Shown piece by piece: positions 4,200 to 11,174 of a DNA stretch of 11,259 bases; within the stretch, counting starts at the first letter, position 1; every line of letters begins with the position of its first letter. A program made the translations under genes and the position numbers. The notes under the pieces are model-generated. The model ran no database searches. It had not been told where the DNA came from and saw only the letters and a program-made list of their open reading frames with translations. Origin of the DNA: Deltaproteobacteria bacterium RIFOXYA12_FULL_61_11. GTDB lineage: Bacteria > Bdellovibrionota_F > JAHFAK01 > YA12-FULL-61-11. Location: NCBI GenBank assembly GCA_001799195.1, contig MGSU01000114.1, positions 1 to 11,259 of the forward strand. Direction: 5' to 3'.

Positions 4200-4751
4200 C
4201 ATTCCAAGAGAAGTTGAGCCTGAGAACGGTCATGATCAACAAATGCAGGAGGCCGCACGATGCAAGGCCGACGGCCGCGCTGTATGTAAAAGAAGGACTC
4301 CAATGACTAGGTGGGATTCATGGGGAGAGCGAGGTCGAAGGCAGTGCTGGGGGTTCCTACCAACTCAACCAGAAGCACATGTGGGAACCGGGTTCAAGTA
4401 CCGTACTGGACCTCACCGGACAGTTTCGGGCGAGCGAATGGATTCGGCATTTCGATTTCATCATTGTTCGAAAGGGTTATCAGGAAGCAGTGCTCGCAAA
4501 TCCTTTCATGATGATGAGTTAGGACACCGAACCCGATTCGGTTATTCGAATCGCCGATACCACCGTTTGCCATAACAGGTTGTATGATCACACCCAAAGT
4601 CATGATGCTGTTGGCACAGAAATTGAGAAATCCATCACCGTGGCAAAAGGAACCACCATCGGTTGCGACGTAGGCCTCTTGACCACAGCCCGTGTTTCTG
4701 CTATGAGATGGTGCGTTGACAGCAGAGACCATAGGAACTACCAGGGGGGAT
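4200..4751. other. About 550 bp with no recognisable gene; possible decayed coding sequence
   Basis: Base composition is intermediate between the GC-rich left and AT-rich right. No tRNA, rRNA or known RNA element is evident. On the + strand, the frame running 4307-4759 is open except for one TAG at 4520-4522, with protein-like stretches on both sides (for example RHFDFIIVRKGYQEAV before, and EKSITVAKGTTIGCDVGLL after). The minus strand is also open over 4394-4789 (131 codons, beginning MEITVLAKKLRI). Neither matches a family I recognise, neither has a convincing ribosome binding site, and the other + frames give only short Arg/Ser-rich products. The best reading is a decayed gene or uncharacterised intergenic DNA. 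A leader for the downstream cluster could also lie here, but no clear promoter is visible. Confidence 0.35.
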
Positions 4752-4898
4752 ATGATGCGTAGCTTCTTGGCCAGGACAGTGATTTCCATCCTTGTATTAC
4801 TTCCATTCCAGTTGCAGGCGTTGCAGGTGTTTGTTCAAGGAGAGAGAGCGAACATTGAAAAGCCAGCGGGAACTGTAAGCTGGAGTAACTCTCACTGA
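4752..4898 (+). CDS. Small 48-residue ORF with an N-terminal export signal; possible precursor peptide
   Basis: Adjacent ATG codons at 4752 and 4755 follow the purine run AGGGGGGA (4743-4750), a plausible but non-ideal ribosome binding site. The product begins MMRSFLARTV, with a positive N-region, a hydrophobic core ISILVLLPF (about 11-19) and a possible signal-peptidase site after QLQA (about residue 23). The remainder is about 25 residues, ending GTVSWSNSH. It lies 17 bp upstream of the peptide-binding protein gene, in a cluster with a radical SAM enzyme and a histidine kinase, so a secreted or modified peptide is an attractive idea. Alternatives are equally open: the first exon-like piece of a frameshifted secreted protein, or a chance ORF. 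I recognise no family. Confidence 0.4.
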   Translation: MMRSFLARTVISILVLLPFQLQALQVFVQGERANIEKPAGTVSWSNSH

Positions 4899-4915
4899 CA
4901 TCATCATACTCATTT

Positions 4916-6478
4916 ATGATAACAACTAGTGGTAAATTTTTCATCATTTCAATTGTACTGTTACTTTTTTCATTTTGTTATTATTTTTGGAGAACATTCT
5001 CAATGTCCAATCAACCAGAAATATTAAAATATGCTGTTACTGGACCGTGGGGGGAATTAAAACCTGCCCGTCAATCAATGGCACTCGCTGATATTATTCT
5101 TGCTGCAGGTTTCGAACCACTTACAATAGATACAGGTAATGGATTTTATACTGCTGGTATTGCCAAAGAATGGCGTGTCAGTGAAGACCGGCGGCAGGTA
5201 ACTTTCTTGCTTAACCTTGATAAACGCTTTTCAGATGGCACTCAGATCAGTTCCTTTCTTTATAAAGAGGCCATGCTTGATTCTCTCCGACAAGCGCCAA
5301 TCTACAAGAATCAAGCGACAAGAGATGTGTTTTACGCATTAGTAGGTTTTGAAGACTTTCTTCATAGTAATGATATCGTTGGTATTAATACACCAAGCGC
5401 CGACACCTTGGTATTATCTTTTAAAAGACCTTATCGTGATATCCTGATGGAAATTAGCGGGATAAGATATTCAATTTACAAAAAAAATGACAAAGGGCAA
5501 CACCTTGGAACTGGACCATACATTATGGAGGAAATTAGTGATCGACAAATACACCTACGGAAGAACCCTTATTATTTTCCCCAACCATCTATTGAGAATA
5601 TTGTGATAGATAATCTTGACCGAGAGCAATTTCAGATAGCTTTATGCGAAGCAAAGTATGACTACTATTTAATACCTCCTTATCAATCACGAGATACTCT
5701 CTGTCAGAAAAACAGTTCAATATTCAGCTATGAAGAAATACCAAGTAAATTGGATACTCATCTCTTTTTAGGCATTAATGATAAAAGTAACAACATATTA
5801 AGCAATCATCGATTTCGACTCCTATTTGAAAAACTTTTCTATTCAGAATTTGATAAACTGAATGACCTGAAAAACTACAAGACAATACCTGAAATACAAT
5901 TCTTCCTACCTACACAACCTGGGCGGCTTGAAATGGAAGAATTGACCAATTACCGATCTATCACTGAAACAGAGAAAGTAGAATTAATTAAAGCAATTAA
6001 GCAGAAGCCATTGTTCATTTTAACAGGTCTCGGGCAAGAGAATCGATTTCACAAGTTAATATCAGCATATTTACAAGAACTTGGCATTGATATCCATCCA
6101 AATTCAAGAACTATTTCATTTACTGAATTTCAGCATCTGGACCAACTCCAAGAAGATTGGGATATCTACTACGCATCTACTTCAATTGGTTGTGACGATC
6201 CAGATGGTCTTTATCATCTTTTTGGGAAACATGGTGCATTAACCATGCTTCCATTTGAGAGACCACTTCTTCAAAACACACTTGAACACGCTCGTAGTTT
6301 GCTTGAATTTTCACAGCTTCATGAAGCATACAAAGAAGTAAATAGAACAATTTTCTCAGAAATTCCTGCTATCCATTTGGGCTATAGCAGTTTCTCCGTC
6401 TATTACAACGAAAACACAATCGAGTTTCGCGGTCGCGGGTCAAGTATGTTCTTTCTCCAGAACTACTCTTGGAAGTGA
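4916..6478 (+). CDS. Membrane-anchored extracellular solute-binding protein, family 5 (peptide/oligopeptide binding)
   Basis: A 520-residue protein with SBP_bac_5 (DppA/OppA-like) hallmarks: a 'GIAKEWRVSEDRRQVTFLL' lobe-I pattern (81-99) followed by KRFSDGTQIS (103-112), and the family signature LGTGPYIMEE (197-206) before RKNPYYF (215-221). Residues 8-25 form one strong hydrophobic segment with no usable lipobox and no clean cleavage site, so it probably remains tethered to the inner membrane facing the periplasm. No good Shine-Dalgarno precedes the ATG at 4916, so the start is less certain than the family; it may depend on translation of the upstream small ORF. Base composition is strongly AT-rich, unlike every neighbour, which suggests a separate origin. 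No ABC permease or ATPase genes are nearby, so a receptor or delivery role is at least as likely as uptake. It ends TGATG, overlapping the radical SAM start. Confidence 0.85.
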   Translation: MITTSGKFFIISIVLLLFSFCYYFWRTFSMSNQPEILKYAVTGPWGELKPARQSMALADIILAAGFEPLTIDTGNGFYTAGIAKEWRVSEDRRQVTFLLNLDKRFSDGTQISSFLYKEAMLDSLRQAPIYKNQATRDVFYALVGFEDFLHSNDIVGINTPSADTLVLSFKRPYRDILMEISGIRYSIYKKNDKGQHLGTGPYIMEEISDRQIHLRKNPYYFPQPSIENIVIDNLDREQFQIALCEAKYDYYLIPPYQSRDTLCQKNSSIFSYEEIPSKLDTHLFLGINDKSNNILSNHRFRLLFEKLFYSEFDKLNDLKNYKTIPEIQFFLPTQPGRLEMEELTNYRSITETEKVELIKAIKQKPLFILTGLGQENRFHKLISAYLQELGIDIHPNSRTISFTEFQHLDQLQEDWDIYYASTSIGCDDPDGLYHLFGKHGALTMLPFERPLLQNTLEHARSLLEFSQLHEAYKEVNRTIFSEIPAIHLGYSSFSVYYNENTIEFRGRGSSMFFLQNYSWK

Positions 6479-7593
6479 TGCCCACCATGAACGTCGCGAA
6501 GACGAACTGGTGGACGAAGTTCTTGGACCGGGTTCAGAGCCGCCTTATCGCCTCCGCAGCGAAACACGAGCGTATCTTTACCCTGCAATGCGAACCATCC
6601 TGGCGCTGCAATCTGCGCTGCCGCCACTGTTATCTTGGCGACGGCCCTCCTCGCGCTGTCGAGGAACTCGGGCCGGAACAGTGGCGCTCGATCCTGCTCC
6701 AGTTTGCCGAACTGAATACCCTCCTCGCCACTCGATCCCATGTCGCTTTGGCGGGCGGTGAACCCCTGCTCCTCCCCTGGTTCGAACACTTCTTGAACCT
6801 GGCCAAAGAGCTTGTGCCAAGCTGCGACCTCAGCGTCCTTACCAACGGAACGCTGCTCGACGAGCGGCGAGCAAAACTGCTGCACCATCACCGAGCCACG
6901 GTGCAACTCAGCCTCGACGGTTGGGACGAGCCCAGTCATGACCAGGTTCGCGGCGCCGGCTCCTTCCATGCAACCTGTCGGGGAGCCATCCTCTTGCGGA
7001 AACATCAGGTCCCCTTTTCCCTGCAATGCACGCTTTCGCACCACAATGCCGAGGGTATCGAGGCCATGTTCGTCCTGGCAAAGCGACTCGGGGCGAGGTC
7101 CATGGATTTCTGTCGGCTCATTCCCTCCGGCCGCGCCTCGGGCCCAGCCTCCGATCCGATCTGCACCCCTTTGCACGGCGAAACCCTCCGCCAGGCCTTT
7201 TGCGATATTTTTCAGGCCTCCCACGGCACTGGGCTCACCACCAACCGCGGCCTTCCCCTGATGCACCTTATTGAAGCCGACGCCGGCGGGCAGTTCGGTC
7301 AAGGTTTCTACGGCCTCACCGTGCAACCGGACGGCGGCTTGCGGCCGACCAGTAGGCTCGGTATCGTCCTGGGCGATCTGCGTCGGCAAGATCTCCGTTC
7401 GCTCTACTTCGGTGCTGAGTTCCAAGCATTGCGCACCCAGTGTGTTGAGGGCTGCTCTGCTTGCCCTACCTATGAGCGCTGCGGAGGCGGAGATCGGAAC
7501 GCTGCCTATGCCGAGCACGGGCATTTCCTCTCCAAAGACCCGGGTTGCTGGGCTGGGACCGATCCACAACAGAGCGAAGGAGTGGGCCCGTGA
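6478..7593 (+). CDS. Radical SAM protein with reduced SPASM-like C-terminal domain
   Basis: A 371-residue protein. The CX3CX2C cluster C44-NLR-C48-RH-C51 binds the 4Fe-4S that cleaves SAM, and GGEP (93-96) contacts SAM. The C-terminus has C322, C326-SA-C329-PTYER-C335 and C357, resembling the SPASM CX2CX5C core. The Cys expected four residues after C335 is Asp339, and the early SPASM Cys in the 'PC' position looks like Thr291. At most one auxiliary cluster therefore seems likely. SPASM enzymes commonly modify peptides or proteins (PqqE, anSME, sactisynthases), so a peptide substrate is likely but not shown. No RRE-like leader-binding domain is evident. I chose the ATG overlapping the upstream stop; ATG 6487 and TTG 6469 are alternatives. 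The gene is GC-rich, in contrast to its upstream partner, and its stop overlaps the kinase start (GTGA). Confidence 0.87.
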
Positions 7594-9395
7594 ATTCCTC
7601 AAGCGCACCATCTATCCAGACGTGGTTCAACGCCAAGATCAACCGCAAGATCCTCATCCTTATGCTCGTGACCCTTGGCTTCCAACTCCTCCTCTCGGGC
7701 ATGCTTGGCCGGAAATGGCACCAGCAACGCGAAGAAGAAATCCTGGATGACGCCCTCACCCTGGGGATGCAATACGATCGCCGCGATCAAACTGCCATGA
7801 ACGCACATGCTGAGTTACTCCGCAGCCATTACCGGGCAACCTTCTTAGCCATCTGCGATCATACTGGTACGCTTCGGGTCGCCTTCTACGACCTCGGCGA
7901 CCACTGTCGCGAGCCTCTTTCCTTGACGACCCTCCGCATCCGCGCACCGCTCCATCAGTCCACCCGCCAACTCGAACTGGTGCTCGACTACCCCGCACTT
8001 GATTATCTCGTCATGCTGGGTCCCTATTCGTTGGTATTATTGTGCTTCTTTGCTTGTATGCTCTTGGTACTCCACGGTTTCCATCACCATCTCGGCAAAG
8101 AGCTCGTCGGCCCGATCCAACGTCTCCTGCAGCCCGAAGAACCTTTGCCGCGCATCAAAGAACTTGCGGAACTCCAAACCAATTTCCGCCACCTCACCCG
8201 TTCCCTCCAAGAGCAGTCCGCGCTCGCGGCCATCGGTAAGACCTCGGCTATGCTCGCCCATGACCTCCGGAAGCCTTTCGCGGCCATGCGCACCTTCTTT
8301 TCCCTGCTGCCTGCGCAGGGTAGTGACCCCGATTTTCTCTTGCGTTGGCAAACCGCAATCGAGCAGGGCGGGAAGCGGATCGAGAGCATGCTTTCCGAGG
8401 TCCTGCAGTTCGCTTCCACTGGCAATCTGCAACAGAAGCCCTGTAACCTCCAGGACCTCCTCTCAGCCGCGGCCACCGAGGTCTTCACCACCCACCCCAG
8501 CCTGGTGACCCTCACCTACGACCTCGCGCTTCGGCTCACTCCCTACGTCGATGAGACCAAGATCTTGCGCTTGCTCATCAACCTTCTCGCGAACGCGGTC
8601 GAGGCCATGCACGGCATGGGTACTATCCACATCGCGAGTGAGGCTTTGCTGGATACTCCTGGCCGCTGGATGCGCCTCAGCCTCACCAACAGCAACAGTT
8701 TGATCCCACCCGAGGTGCAAGAGCATCTCTTCGAGGCGTATTACACCCACGGAAAACCCGGGGGTACTGGGCTTGGTCTGGCCATTTGCAAGAAGGTGGT
8801 CGAGGACCACGGCGGGAGGATCTGGGTCGAGAGCACGGTCGCAACGGGAACCTGCTTCAGCTTCACCCTGCCCTGCTCCGACCTGTCCGAACCGGGACCG
8901 ACGCTCCCCCTCCATCCACGGGGGAGCGACTTCGCGACCGGGGTCCGTCCAGGGCCCCACGTTCCCCAGCCGAAGGTGGTGCCCGCAGAAGCTACCCCGC
9001 GAGCAACCGCCACCTCGGCCCTGCTGATTGTCGACGATGACCCCCTCCTGCGCGAGGGAACAAAGCTCCTGCTCGCCCGGCACGTGTGCCCGACCTCGGG
9101 GCACGCCATCCTCACCGCGGCCGGTCCCGAAGAAGCCCTGGAAATGCTGGCCGACCATCCGGTCGAGGTGGTCATCACCGACCTCCACCTCAGCGAGAGC
9201 GCCGAAACCGAGGGTCTGGAGCTTATCAGACAACTAAAAAACCTTCGTCCGGACCTTGCGGTCTTCGCCCTGTCGTGTTCCTCGGCCTCGGTCATGGAAA
9301 CATCTGCTCTGGCCGCCGGAGCGACCGCATATTTCGAGGCTCCCCTCACTTCAGCCATGCTCGAACGCATCGGTAGAACCTGGCGATGCACCTGA
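7590..9395 (+). CDS. Hybrid sensor histidine kinase with C-terminal receiver domain
   Basis: A 601-residue inner-membrane sensor. GTG 7590 was chosen because AAGGAG (7577-7582) sits 7 nt upstream and the start overlaps the radical SAM stop. Order: TM1 about 20-39; periplasmic domain about 41-136; TM2 about 138-162; linker; HisKA with phosphoacceptor His224 in AHDLRKP; HATPase with the N box around N331/N335 ([11 protein letters not shown]) and GGTGLGLAI (391-399); Pro-rich linker 430-475; REC domain about 477-595 with acidic pocket D482-D484, phosphoacceptor Asp531 (VVITDLHLS) and Ser562. Oddities: the G1 box, normally DxGxG, reads NSNSLIP (367-373), and the conserved receiver Lys is replaced by Ala584 (YFEAP). 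No DNA-binding output domain is present, so the signal must pass to another protein or the receiver self-regulates. By context it may sense a ligand of the SBP or a modified peptide (inference). Confidence 0.92.
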
Positions 9396-9573: not shown

Positions 9574-10464
9574 ATGAAGACCAGCCGCGTATGCATGCTG
9601 TTCCTTTCTTTCGGTCTGCTCAGCGTGTTTGGGTTCGGCAGCGGTGGAGCAACCAGCGCGTCCTGCCCTTTCTTCGGGCCGGATGAAGAAGAGCTCGCTG
9701 CCCTCGAGGCGATCGAATGGGACGAATCGTGTTGGCAGGACGATGCGACCGACGCGGTTTTCGAGCGCAGCACCGAGGTACTTGCCCGCGATGTCGATGG
9801 AAACCGCCATGTCGTCGTGATTACCGAACTGACCATTTCCGACGCCTATGTCAATATCGGCTATGGGATCAAGCGTTGGCTGCCAACCTGCGCCCTCCTA
9901 CCGCTCCTCGAGAGCAACGAACACCTGACGCTCCACCAAGAGGCCCTCTATATCGCCCCCGAGAGCGGCCTTCATACCCTCGTCACGGTGCAGCAAATCA
10001 CCCCGATCGAGGTCTCTGTCACTGAAACCGTAGGTCTTGGCGCCGAGCCCTCCTCGCCCTTTTGGGTTCCTTACGAGGACCTTGCTACCCTGCAACCCTT
10101 CGCCGGACCGGGCGTAACCCAGGACCTGCTGACCTACTACGCCGCGGCAATGGGTTATAACTTCGAGGAGCCGGAAACGGAATTCCTCCTCAACGACGAG
10201 TGCTACTGGCAATACGAAGAAGCTTCCGATCTCGAGGCTTGCATTACGACCAGTTACCGCCAGGCGATGCGCGAGGAATTTTTGCACAAACCCGAGATAT
10301 TTCAGGTCTACGAGAAAGTCCTTCTCAACGAAAACGGCACCAAGTCCTTCGCCCAGATCACCCACCTGACCAGCGACGAAGCAAGGGTGAAGTTCGAGGG
10401 ACAAGATGTCGTCCAAGCAACCCGCTGGGTCGGATTCGAAGCCCTGACCAAACTCCTCCCCTGA
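9574..10464 (+). CDS. Secreted protein with three imperfect ~50-residue beta-rich repeats, function unknown
   Basis: A 296-residue protein. The start at 9574 follows ACGGAGG and gives a clean Sec signal peptide: MKTSR, a hydrophobic core 7-21, and likely cleavage after ATSA (29). Three segments share one pattern, in which V..L leads to V..IT.LT..EA.V, then an aromatic W-V/L, then L..L.P: about 67-113 (RHVVVITELTISDAYVNI...RWLP), 121-176 (HTLVTVQQITPIEVSV...FWVP) and 244-296 (FAQITHLTSDEARVKF...RWVG). A DESCW (50-54) and a DECYW (208-212) precede the first and third repeats, suggesting Cys-bearing spacers that could form disulfides. The pattern resembles small SH3-like or beta-barrel modules, but I cannot name the family. 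It stands alone behind its own promoter candidate; repeat-rich DNA follows. Probably periplasmic or extracellular. Confidence 0.8.
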   Translation: MKTSRVCMLFLSFGLLSVFGFGSGGATSASCPFFGPDEEELAALEAIEWDESCWQDDATDAVFERSTEVLARDVDGNRHVVVITELTISDAYVNIGYGIKRWLPTCALLPLLESNEHLTLHQEALYIAPESGLHTLVTVQQITPIEVSVTETVGLGAEPSSPFWVPYEDLATLQPFAGPGVTQDLLTYYAAAMGYNFEEPETEFLLNDECYWQYEEASDLEACITTSYRQAMREEFLHKPEIFQVYEKVLLNENGTKSFAQITHLTSDEARVKFEGQDVVQATRWVGFEALTKLLP

Positions 10465-10487: not shown

Positions 10488-10904
10488 CTAATGCTCAGAA
10501 GCACCCAATGTAGGGGCGCGATGTATCGCGCCCTGTGCTTCGGTTGCGATCCCGGATGTCATTGATTGGGTTGCGATCCCGGATGTCATCGCACCCAAAT
10601 GGGGCGCAATGAATTGCGCTCCTACGTTGCGTTCCGACAAGAGGACGATGCCGTGCATGTGGTTAGGCATGATGATATATTCATCGATATCAACGGTCGG
10701 AAAACGGCCACCGGGGAACAACGACCATACATCTGCAACGATCCTCCCCGCATCGTTCAACAACATCTCCCCATCCGCCACCTCGCCGAACAGGCATTCG
10801 CGATCTTGGGTACAAATGGTCACGAAATACGCTCCAGCCTGGGAATAATTCCATCCCTGCAAGCGTATGGAACGTCGATGGTGATGGTCGGGGTGGAATC
10901 TCAT
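10488..10904 (-). pseudogene. Truncated RAYT (REP-associated tyrosine transposase, TnpA_REP/Y1 HUH family)
   Basis: 138 residues with the family's N-terminal signature: RRSIRLQGWNYSQAGAYFVT (10-29), CTQDRECLFGEV (31-42), LNDAGRIV (49-56) and the HUH metal-binding motif PNHMHGIV with His82 and His84. GGAGG lies 7 nt before the ATG, which overlaps the stop of the upstream methylase-like fragment (ATGA). From about residue 95 the frame runs through REP-like palindromes (GAQFIAP..., TSGIAT..., APTLGA) and stops soon after, at 138. The family normally continues with a helical region containing the catalytic Tyr (often in a YYEHIIR-like motif). That part is missing, so the product should be catalytically dead. 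The expected continuation (VVRGFKSR) occurs instead in a separate fragment at 11053-11174. Confidence 0.8.
10508..10625. repeat. REP-like palindromic repeat unit A with internal 27-bp tandem duplication
   Basis: Two palindromes flank a spacer: GGGCGCGAT-GT-ATCGCGCCC (10514-10533, perfect) and GGGGCGCAAT-GA-ATTGCGCTCC (10601-10622, one mismatch). Between them a 21-bp segment occurs twice with a 27-bp period (10542-10562 and 10569-10589). A second unit lies at 11087-11174 without the duplication. The unit is translated inside the RAYT frame on the minus strand, where the duplication adds exactly nine residues. RAYT enzymes are known to act on REP palindromes, so co-occurrence fits. Confidence 0.8.
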
Positions 10905-11056: not shown

Positions 11057-11174
11057 GACTTGAACCCGCGAACAACGGCCCCCAACGTAGGGGCGAGATT
11101 CATCGCGCCCTGTGCTTCGGTTGCGATCCCGGATGTTGTCGCACCCATATGGGGCGCAATGAATTGCGCCCCTA
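11053..11174 (-). pseudogene. Internal fragment of a second RAYT, made of REP-like sequence plus conserved VVRGFKSR
   Basis: Reads GAQFIAPHMGATTSGIAT, then EAQGAMNLAPTLGAVVRGFK, followed by SR. The first part matches residues 95-134 of the truncated RAYT at 10488-10904. The last part (PTLGAVVRGFKSR) is the conserved segment that normally follows in RAYT proteins. Similarity stops at about 11053, where the methylase-like fragment begins in another frame. At the other side the group II intron starts at 11175, so the N-terminal part of this copy, if it survives, lies beyond the intron outside the window. Confidence 0.65.
11087..11174. repeat. REP-like palindromic repeat unit B
   Basis: Same architecture as the unit at 10508-10625: GGGCGAGAT-TC-ATCGCGCCC (11091-11110, one mismatch) and a perfect GGGGCGCAAT-GA-ATTGCGCCCC (11151-11172), with the shared spacer TTGCGATCCCGGATG present once. 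Orientation is the same as unit A, so recombination between them would delete the 0.5 kb in between. It lies directly left of the group II intron boundary. Confidence 0.8.

Follow-up and report, generated by a model that had tools for sequence, protein, structure and literature searches.

An operon encoding a prepeptide, a tethered binding protein, a radical SAM enzyme and a hybrid kinase that may form a peptide self-sensing circuit

The genome of Deltaproteobacteria bacterium RIFOXYA12_FULL_61_11 carries an operon that looks like an undescribed way of making and sensing its own peptide signal. Its four plus-strand genes, at positions 4752-9395 of the 11,259-nucleotide stretch of DNA analysed here (the window), encode a small exported prepeptide, a membrane-anchored SBP_bac_5 protein (SBP), a radical SAM enzyme and a hybrid sensor histidine kinase, and a literature search found no description of a system that joins SBP_bac_5, radical SAM and histidine kinase proteins. 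Judging from sequence, we put the chance that the cluster is a peptide signalling (self-sensing) two-component circuit at about even. A more detailed reading, which we hold only tentatively, is that a radical-SAM-modified, Sec-exported autoinducer is read by the tethered SBP and the hybrid kinase, and that the peptide core and SBP are swapped as a cassette between conserved flanks, which would make the system ComQXPA-like but assembled from unrelated parts. If true, the circuit would bring peptide communication to a phylum whose biology is almost unknown, be a direct instance of a signal produced by a radical SAM enzyme, and place signal specificity in a binding protein and not in the kinase.

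The contig is part of a draft genome of 4.64 Mb in 342 contigs (87% complete). The cluster forms one tight operon with a single gap and two gene overlaps (Table 1): the short open reading frame (sORF) for the prepeptide ends at 4898, 17 nt before the SBP gene starts at 4916, the SBP and enzyme genes share TGATG (TGA 6476-6478, ATG 6478-6480), and the enzyme and kinase genes share GTGA (GTG 7590-7592, TGA 7591-7593). Re-reading of the sequence bore out the coordinates, the gap and both overlaps as given in a preliminary description of this DNA. Apart from SPASM, the domains that it had assigned to the three large proteins also held, with SBP_bac_5, Radical_SAM, HisKA, HATPase_c and Response_reg all above their Pfam cutoffs. 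The tether of the SBP is an N-terminal hydrophobic anchor (residues 6-24); no lipobox was seen by eye in its N-terminus. A consensus scan of 4699..4754, upstream of the sORF, gave no passing sigma-70 promoter.

Table 1. Features of the cluster and its surroundings, in window coordinates
Feature	Positions	Strand	Basis and remarks
Candidate degenerate sigma-54-type site TGGCACAGAAATTGA	4612..4626	+	One mismatch to TGGCN7TTGC; weak
Region upstream of the sORF, with its ribosome-binding site GGGGGGAT	4699..4754	+	Alignment of the two same-genome copies; highly similar block
Small exported prepeptide MRSFLARTVISILVLLPFQLQALQVFVQGERANIEKPAGTVSWSNSH	4755..4898	+	47 codons; alternative ATG at 4752; signal peptide/leader about residues 1-28, then variable core
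Hypervariable C-terminal core of prepeptide	4839..4898	+	Copy alignment, Fisher test; Trp near C-terminus
Membrane-anchored SBP_bac_5 protein, 520 aa	4916..6478	+	Pfam; GC 37%; anchor about residues 6-24
Radical SAM enzyme	6478..7593	+	Pfam, NCBIfam, family alignment
Hybrid sensor histidine kinase	7590..9395	+	Pfam, TM prediction
Putative exported protein, no family match	9577..10464	+	Downstream of kinase; cluster membership uncertain

Four related loci are known. Two lie in the window's genome (G000), namely the window itself and contig C182 (locus L039), and two in genome G001, on contigs C153 (L040) and C75 (L041); G001 belongs to a different family and is the only other genome of the window's class and phylum among those searched. 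An enzyme, a kinase and an exported peptide of 46-50 aa are found in all four loci and an SBP in three. The C182 locus keeps the window's order of SBP, enzyme and kinase, C153 reads sigma-54 activator, MFS, enzyme, SBP, SBP, kinase, and C75 reads enzyme, MFS, kinase, NtrC-type regulator; since C75 has peptide, enzyme and kinase without an SBP, the SBP is not universal to these clusters. Co-occurrence of SBP, radical SAM and kinase elsewhere, set beforehand as a test of the proposed circuit, is thus seen in three loci from two families, and a conserved short exported ORF stands beside the three genes each time. Likewise, the earlier remark that no ABC transporter is adjacent extends to all four loci, where no ABC permease or ATPase gene adjoins any cluster SBP.

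Single-sequence searches of 98 genomes set this family apart. An 83% identical paralogue of the enzyme lies in C182 and two relatives at 33-34% lie in G001, with the family scoring 199 bits against 115 for the next best. For the SBP the sole relatives are one in C182 (61%) and two in G001 (29-32%), at 250 bits against 31. Profile searches of 386 genomes found the enzyme subfamily only in G000 and G001 and gave an equal picture for the SBP; the score gaps in these searches are exaggerated, since the four members themselves went into the profiles, and the single-sequence searches give an equal gap. None of 80 loci with distant enzyme relatives in named genomes (the best of them 34% identical over the full length) has this SBP nearby, and a search of viral contigs and plasmids for SBP relatives gave nothing useful. 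The putative exported protein downstream of the kinase has a 77% amino acid match at the broken contig end of C182 and was duplicated along with the cluster; it is absent from G001 and has no Pfam or NCBIfam match.

The small exported ORF beside the cluster has proved to be beyond chance, as a homologous prepeptide is present in all four loci. In C182 it lies directly before the SBP gene (MRSFLARAVISILVLLPFQLQALQVFVQAEQTGISDARGSISDWSNHNKK; 74% at the amino acid level across the match to the window prepeptide), in C153 it is a 46-aa ORF directly before the kinase gene (MKKRMKMLLILVLTLIPIGSVALKAQIIAAGINENGRPVSFDEESG, with the ribosome-binding site AGGAAAGGAGG), and in C75 it is a 46-aa ORF directly after the enzyme gene (MKKRIILGILSVVRMIPVRAVSLRAQIVEAHIVSRETHMLSELSVW). 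When the roughly 150 ORFs of 30-80 codons in each locus are ranked as matches, the two G001 peptides pick each other first by a large margin (score 55), the window and C182 peptides both rank the C153 peptide first, and the C75 peptide is placed first by the C182 peptide and third by the window peptide. Two-peptide profile HMMs are too short for a significant link between G000 and G001, and the link consists of best-rank alignment together with common position and size. All four prepeptides have a charged start and a hydrophobic stretch followed, by eye, by a signal-peptidase-like site and L-[QKR]. Their cores differ, with Trp among the last eight residues in three and, in the fourth, Phe seven residues from the end. 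No further copies of the prepeptide were found elsewhere in G000 or G001. In each locus, as expected of a RiPP cluster, a gene-encoded precursor whose leader is conserved and whose core varies accompanies a modifying-type enzyme. A RiPP recognition element (RRE) or PqqD-like protein or domain, which is common but not universal in RiPP clusters, had no Pfam match among the cluster proteins scanned; relatives at about 200 bits in other phyla have a PqqD-like neighbour by eye.

Nucleotide alignment of the window with C182, the one pair of copies from which all of the following figures are drawn, reveals a mosaic of conserved and divergent segments. The ribosome-binding site and leader are 96% identical, whereas the prepeptide core, which ends in GTVSWSNSH in the window and in GSISDWSNHNKK in C182, is only 43% identical (leader versus core, Fisher P = 8e-15), and pN rises from 0.015 in the leader to 0.42 in the core. 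Identity is also low in the spacer and SBP anchor (39%), is higher in the conserved N part of the SBP (75%), falls again in the variable remainder of the SBP (60%), and reaches 85% in the enzyme (SBP remainder versus enzyme, P = 2e-37), 91% in the kinase sensor and 86% in the rest of the kinase. Because the SBP varies with the peptide core and the kinase sensor is nearly constant, we infer that the SBP would carry specificity, reading the peptide while showing a constant face to the kinase. A comparable pattern is known from ComQXPA, in which the peptide C-terminus and the receptor vary together and the ligand-reading part of the kinase is the variable piece (PMC4008528).

Other processes have left their mark on the same alignment. 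Synonymous sites in the SBP gene are saturated between the copies and its GC content is 37% compared to 62% for the enzyme gene, so cassette replacement or flank conversion is at least part of the cause, and SBP divergence may stem from gene replacement, recombination or flank gene conversion instead of selection for specificity. The leader (window 4738-4838, L039 about 4920-5030) has a dS of 0.11 compared to synonymous values of 0.60 for the enzyme and 0.41 for the kinase, which therefore points to recent gene conversion or constraint at the nucleotide level; the possibility that the leader is an RNA element was rejected, as it neither matches Rfam nor folds stably (z +1.25 and +1.30). Within the enzyme gene, the region of the auxiliary-cluster cysteines (window 7351-7500) is 63% identical between copies compared to 85% elsewhere, a divergence that possibly matches the different peptide cores.

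A core and a binding protein that vary to match each other, beside a leader that is conserved, fit a toxin with its immunity protein as well as a signal with its receptor. The peptide could be a RiPP bacteriocin with self-control that kills relatives, with the anchored SBP giving immunity by sequestering it and the kinase providing autoinduction in the manner of nisin and NisRK, and the MFS exporters of G001 would suit such a role. We nonetheless consider this unlikely: an ABC exporter, a protease and any other immunity gene are all absent next to the cluster, and the SBP retains a conserved N part next to a kinase sensor that is itself strongly conserved, a pattern that suggests contact between the two rather than sequestration.

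The window SBP matches SBP_bac_5 (PF00496) at 84.3 bits (cutoff 32.4) and the G001 SBPs at 100.6 and 105.8 bits. The preliminary description had started from the premise that SBP_bac_5 proteins bind peptides, which is not a safe assumption here, as the peptide-anchoring Asp of DppA and OppA is missing (PMC12136057). In an alignment with E. coli DppA, OppA and NikA, all four SBPs have Gly at the position of DppA D436 and its OppA counterpart, and Asp occupies this position in DppA, OppA and three unrelated SBPs. D436 of DppA pairs with the peptide amino group, and an R383D+D436R double mutant loses dipeptide binding (PMC12136057). The longer-peptide SBPs LlOppA and YejA leave the peptide termini unfixed (PMC10924461), and peptide binding by the cluster SBPs is therefore possible, though not in the DppA mode. 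The earlier proposal that the SBP captures the peptide accordingly gains from the coupled divergence of core and SBP and loses from the missing Asp. An AlphaFold model of the SBP (pLDDT 50) was unusable. The second SBP of C153 (L040 5093-6556) has a good ribosome-binding site and neither signal peptide nor anchor, and is therefore predicted to be cytoplasmic, which is odd for an SBP.

By score, the SBPs are nearest to NikA and CntA-type metallophore-binding models, and MbnE, PrgZ and AmiA are among their matches. MbnE is an SBP_bac_5 protein from a methanobactin system, and these similarities would be in keeping with peptide-derived scavenging and sensing of a metal or cofactor, methanobactin-like or PQQ-like, in which the product of the radical SAM enzyme binds a metal or turns into a cofactor, is captured by the SBP and is reported by the kinase. 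Several observations make this improbable. NikA residues R97, W100, R137 and H416 (PMC11091072) align with F, F, a gap and A in all four SBPs, so that R97, W100 and H416 are not kept; a TonB receptor and an ABC importer are absent nearby; and the peptide cores contain neither Cys nor an obvious common metal-binding pattern.

The enzyme scores 62.8 bits against Radical_SAM (Pfam cutoff 29.5) and 17.2 bits against SPASM (cutoff 21.5), its SPASM end being degenerate, so that of the earlier label "radical SAM/SPASM-like" the first half stands and the second lacks the support of a match above the Pfam cutoff. The only cysteines invariant across the four-member family are C47, C51 and C54 (CxxxCxxC) and C329, C332, C338 and C360, numbered from an upstream TTG at 6469, which suggests a radical SAM cluster and one auxiliary cluster; a SPASM enzyme would have two auxiliary clusters, and one auxiliary set of cysteines is invariant here. 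Its best NCBIfam models include the haem enzymes AhbD and NirJ2 alongside peptide maturases. The haem enzyme matches and the lack of an RRE or PqqD-like recognition protein would be in keeping with a prepeptide that is a genuine but unmodified, Phr-like pheromone sensed through the SBP and kinase, with the radical SAM enzyme having a different substrate such as a small molecule. This seems quite unlikely to us, as enzyme and peptide occur together in every one of the four loci, even in C75 with its missing SBP, and the auxiliary-cluster region of the enzyme varies between copies (63%) as the core does.

The kinase combines HisKA, HATPase_c and a C-terminal receiver with two transmembrane segments (TM1 21-39, TM2 143-161) that enclose an extracytoplasmic domain of about 100 aa, for which the structural model is PAS/Cache-like (pLDDT 70) and the PAS/Cache matches from a fold search were all weak (E 0.009 or worse). 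Nutrient sensing by an SBP together with a kinase is common, and the leader is conserved at the nucleotide level beyond its codons and hence may be regulatory. Even so, we think it very unlikely that the cluster is a two-component system that senses an external nutrient with the help of the SBP and in which the sORF is merely a chance leader ORF or a short membrane peptide, given that the sORF is kept in four loci at varied positions (before the SBP, before the kinase or after the enzyme) with good ribosome-binding sites, none of which a leader ORF needs.

Our best model is therefore framed by analogy: a circuit resembling ComQXPA, with a binding-protein co-receptor resembling that of LuxP/LuxQ, and belonging to neither. 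Within the cytoplasm, the radical SAM enzyme would modify the prepeptide core, with the aromatic residue close to the C-terminus a possible target. The peptide would then leave through Sec (in G001 with the additional help of an MFS transporter) and be cleaved by signal peptidase. Once mature, it would be bound by the tethered SBP, which would touch the small extracytoplasmic domain of the kinase, as LuxP does with LuxQ, and the kinase and its receiver would signal on to a response regulator. Such a signalling or self-sensing RiPP-like circuit had been proposed in the preliminary description; gene co-occurrence, the recurring prepeptide and the co-divergence of core and SBP speak for it, and the missing SBP of C75, the missing DppA/OppA Asp, the second SBP of C153 with no signal peptide and the lack of a nearby RRE or PqqD gene speak against it. 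As a single genome has two copies that differ in core and SBP, orthogonality could be tested directly.

Among known systems, ComQXPA of Bacillus likewise sets a peptide-modifying enzyme, a short prepeptide and a sensor kinase side by side in overlapping genes (PMC4008528, PMC4408185), its variable pieces are the peptide C-terminus and the ligand-reading part, and it has a Trp near the peptide C-terminus, as here in three of four loci. It differs in using the isoprenyl transferase ComQ where this cluster has a radical SAM enzyme and a Sec-type signal peptide, and in varying the kinase N-terminus where this cluster varies a separate tethered SBP and has a hybrid kinase, and its hosts come from a little-sampled phylum that is probably not part of Bacillota; no Pfam match to a ComQ isoprenyl transferase or the ComX family was found among the cluster proteins scanned. 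LuxP and LuxQ are a periplasmic binding protein and a hybrid sensor kinase encoded side by side that act as ligand receptor and signaller, the roles that we propose by analogy for the adjoining SBP and kinase. However, LuxP, the ligand of which is AI-2, comes from a different SBP family, whereas the cluster has an SBP_bac_5 protein with its own membrane anchor and holds the peptide and modifying enzyme within the operon. PrgZ and AmiA/AliB are SBP_bac_5 proteins that capture signalling peptides, but they feed ABC importers for intracellular sensing, whereas the cluster has a kinase and no importer. The methanobactin operon with MbnE similarly unites a modified ribosomal peptide and an SBP_bac_5 protein (the modification being putative here); the present cluster lacks a TonB receptor, MbnB/MbnC and peptide Cys, and has a radical SAM enzyme and a kinase. 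Finally, in the streptide and tryglysin RaS-RiPPs under Rgg/SHP control a radical SAM enzyme adjoins a short precursor with a tie to quorum sensing, but sensing there falls to a separate, unmodified SHP and cytoplasmic Rgg (PMC13361665); in the present clusters the operon itself encodes a kinase, in most cases joined by an SBP, and there is no sign of a separate signal peptide.

How the circuit might be controlled is best seen in G001, whose loci carry an additional MFS transporter, a sigma-54 activator gene and sigma-54-type sites. A perfect TGGCN7TTGC lies at L040 1163-1177, directly before the first gene of the operon, which encodes the MFS transporter, and another at L041 6157-6171, directly before the enzyme gene, with a second L041 site beyond the regulator gene; 0.27 and 0.18 such sites per locus are expected by chance. 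These sites are no more than suggestive, as they would place transcription starts at most about a dozen bases from the start codons, an unusual arrangement. The response regulator in G001 would probably be the adjacent NtrC-type activator, and by acting at sites before its own operon it would give positive feedback. A one-mismatch candidate like that of the window (Table 1) occurs at L039 5142-5156, with equal spacing to the sORF in both copies; the count of one-mismatch matches is not above chance. No cognate response regulator was singled out among dozens of candidates in the window's genome, which is rich in radical SAM enzymes and sigma-54 regulation, with 30 SPASM-domain matches and 44 matches to an NtrC-type regulator, some of them to the receiver alone.

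Several neighbouring features are of separate interest. On the minus strand, window positions 10488-10904 look like part of a likely REP-associated tyrosine transposase, and this ORF is flanked by direct repeats of about 60 nt (90-92% identical, at 10501-10624 and 11078-11174) that contain palindromic GGGGCGC...GCGCCCC units, one repeat running into the 3' end of the ORF. Directly after the kinase gene of L040, a long, near-perfect inverted repeat noted by eye at 8799-8870 (AATGGGAAAAATGAAGATGGATCCCGCGA...TCGCGGGATCCATCTTCATTTTTCCCATT) is probably a terminator or small mobile element. Beyond it, and still next to the peptide cluster, the minus strand at L040 8997-10812 carries a second MFS gene in overlap with one that by eye resembles the C-terminal half of an ATP-grasp protein (no Pfam match), and this pair may represent a separate peptide-ligase pathway.
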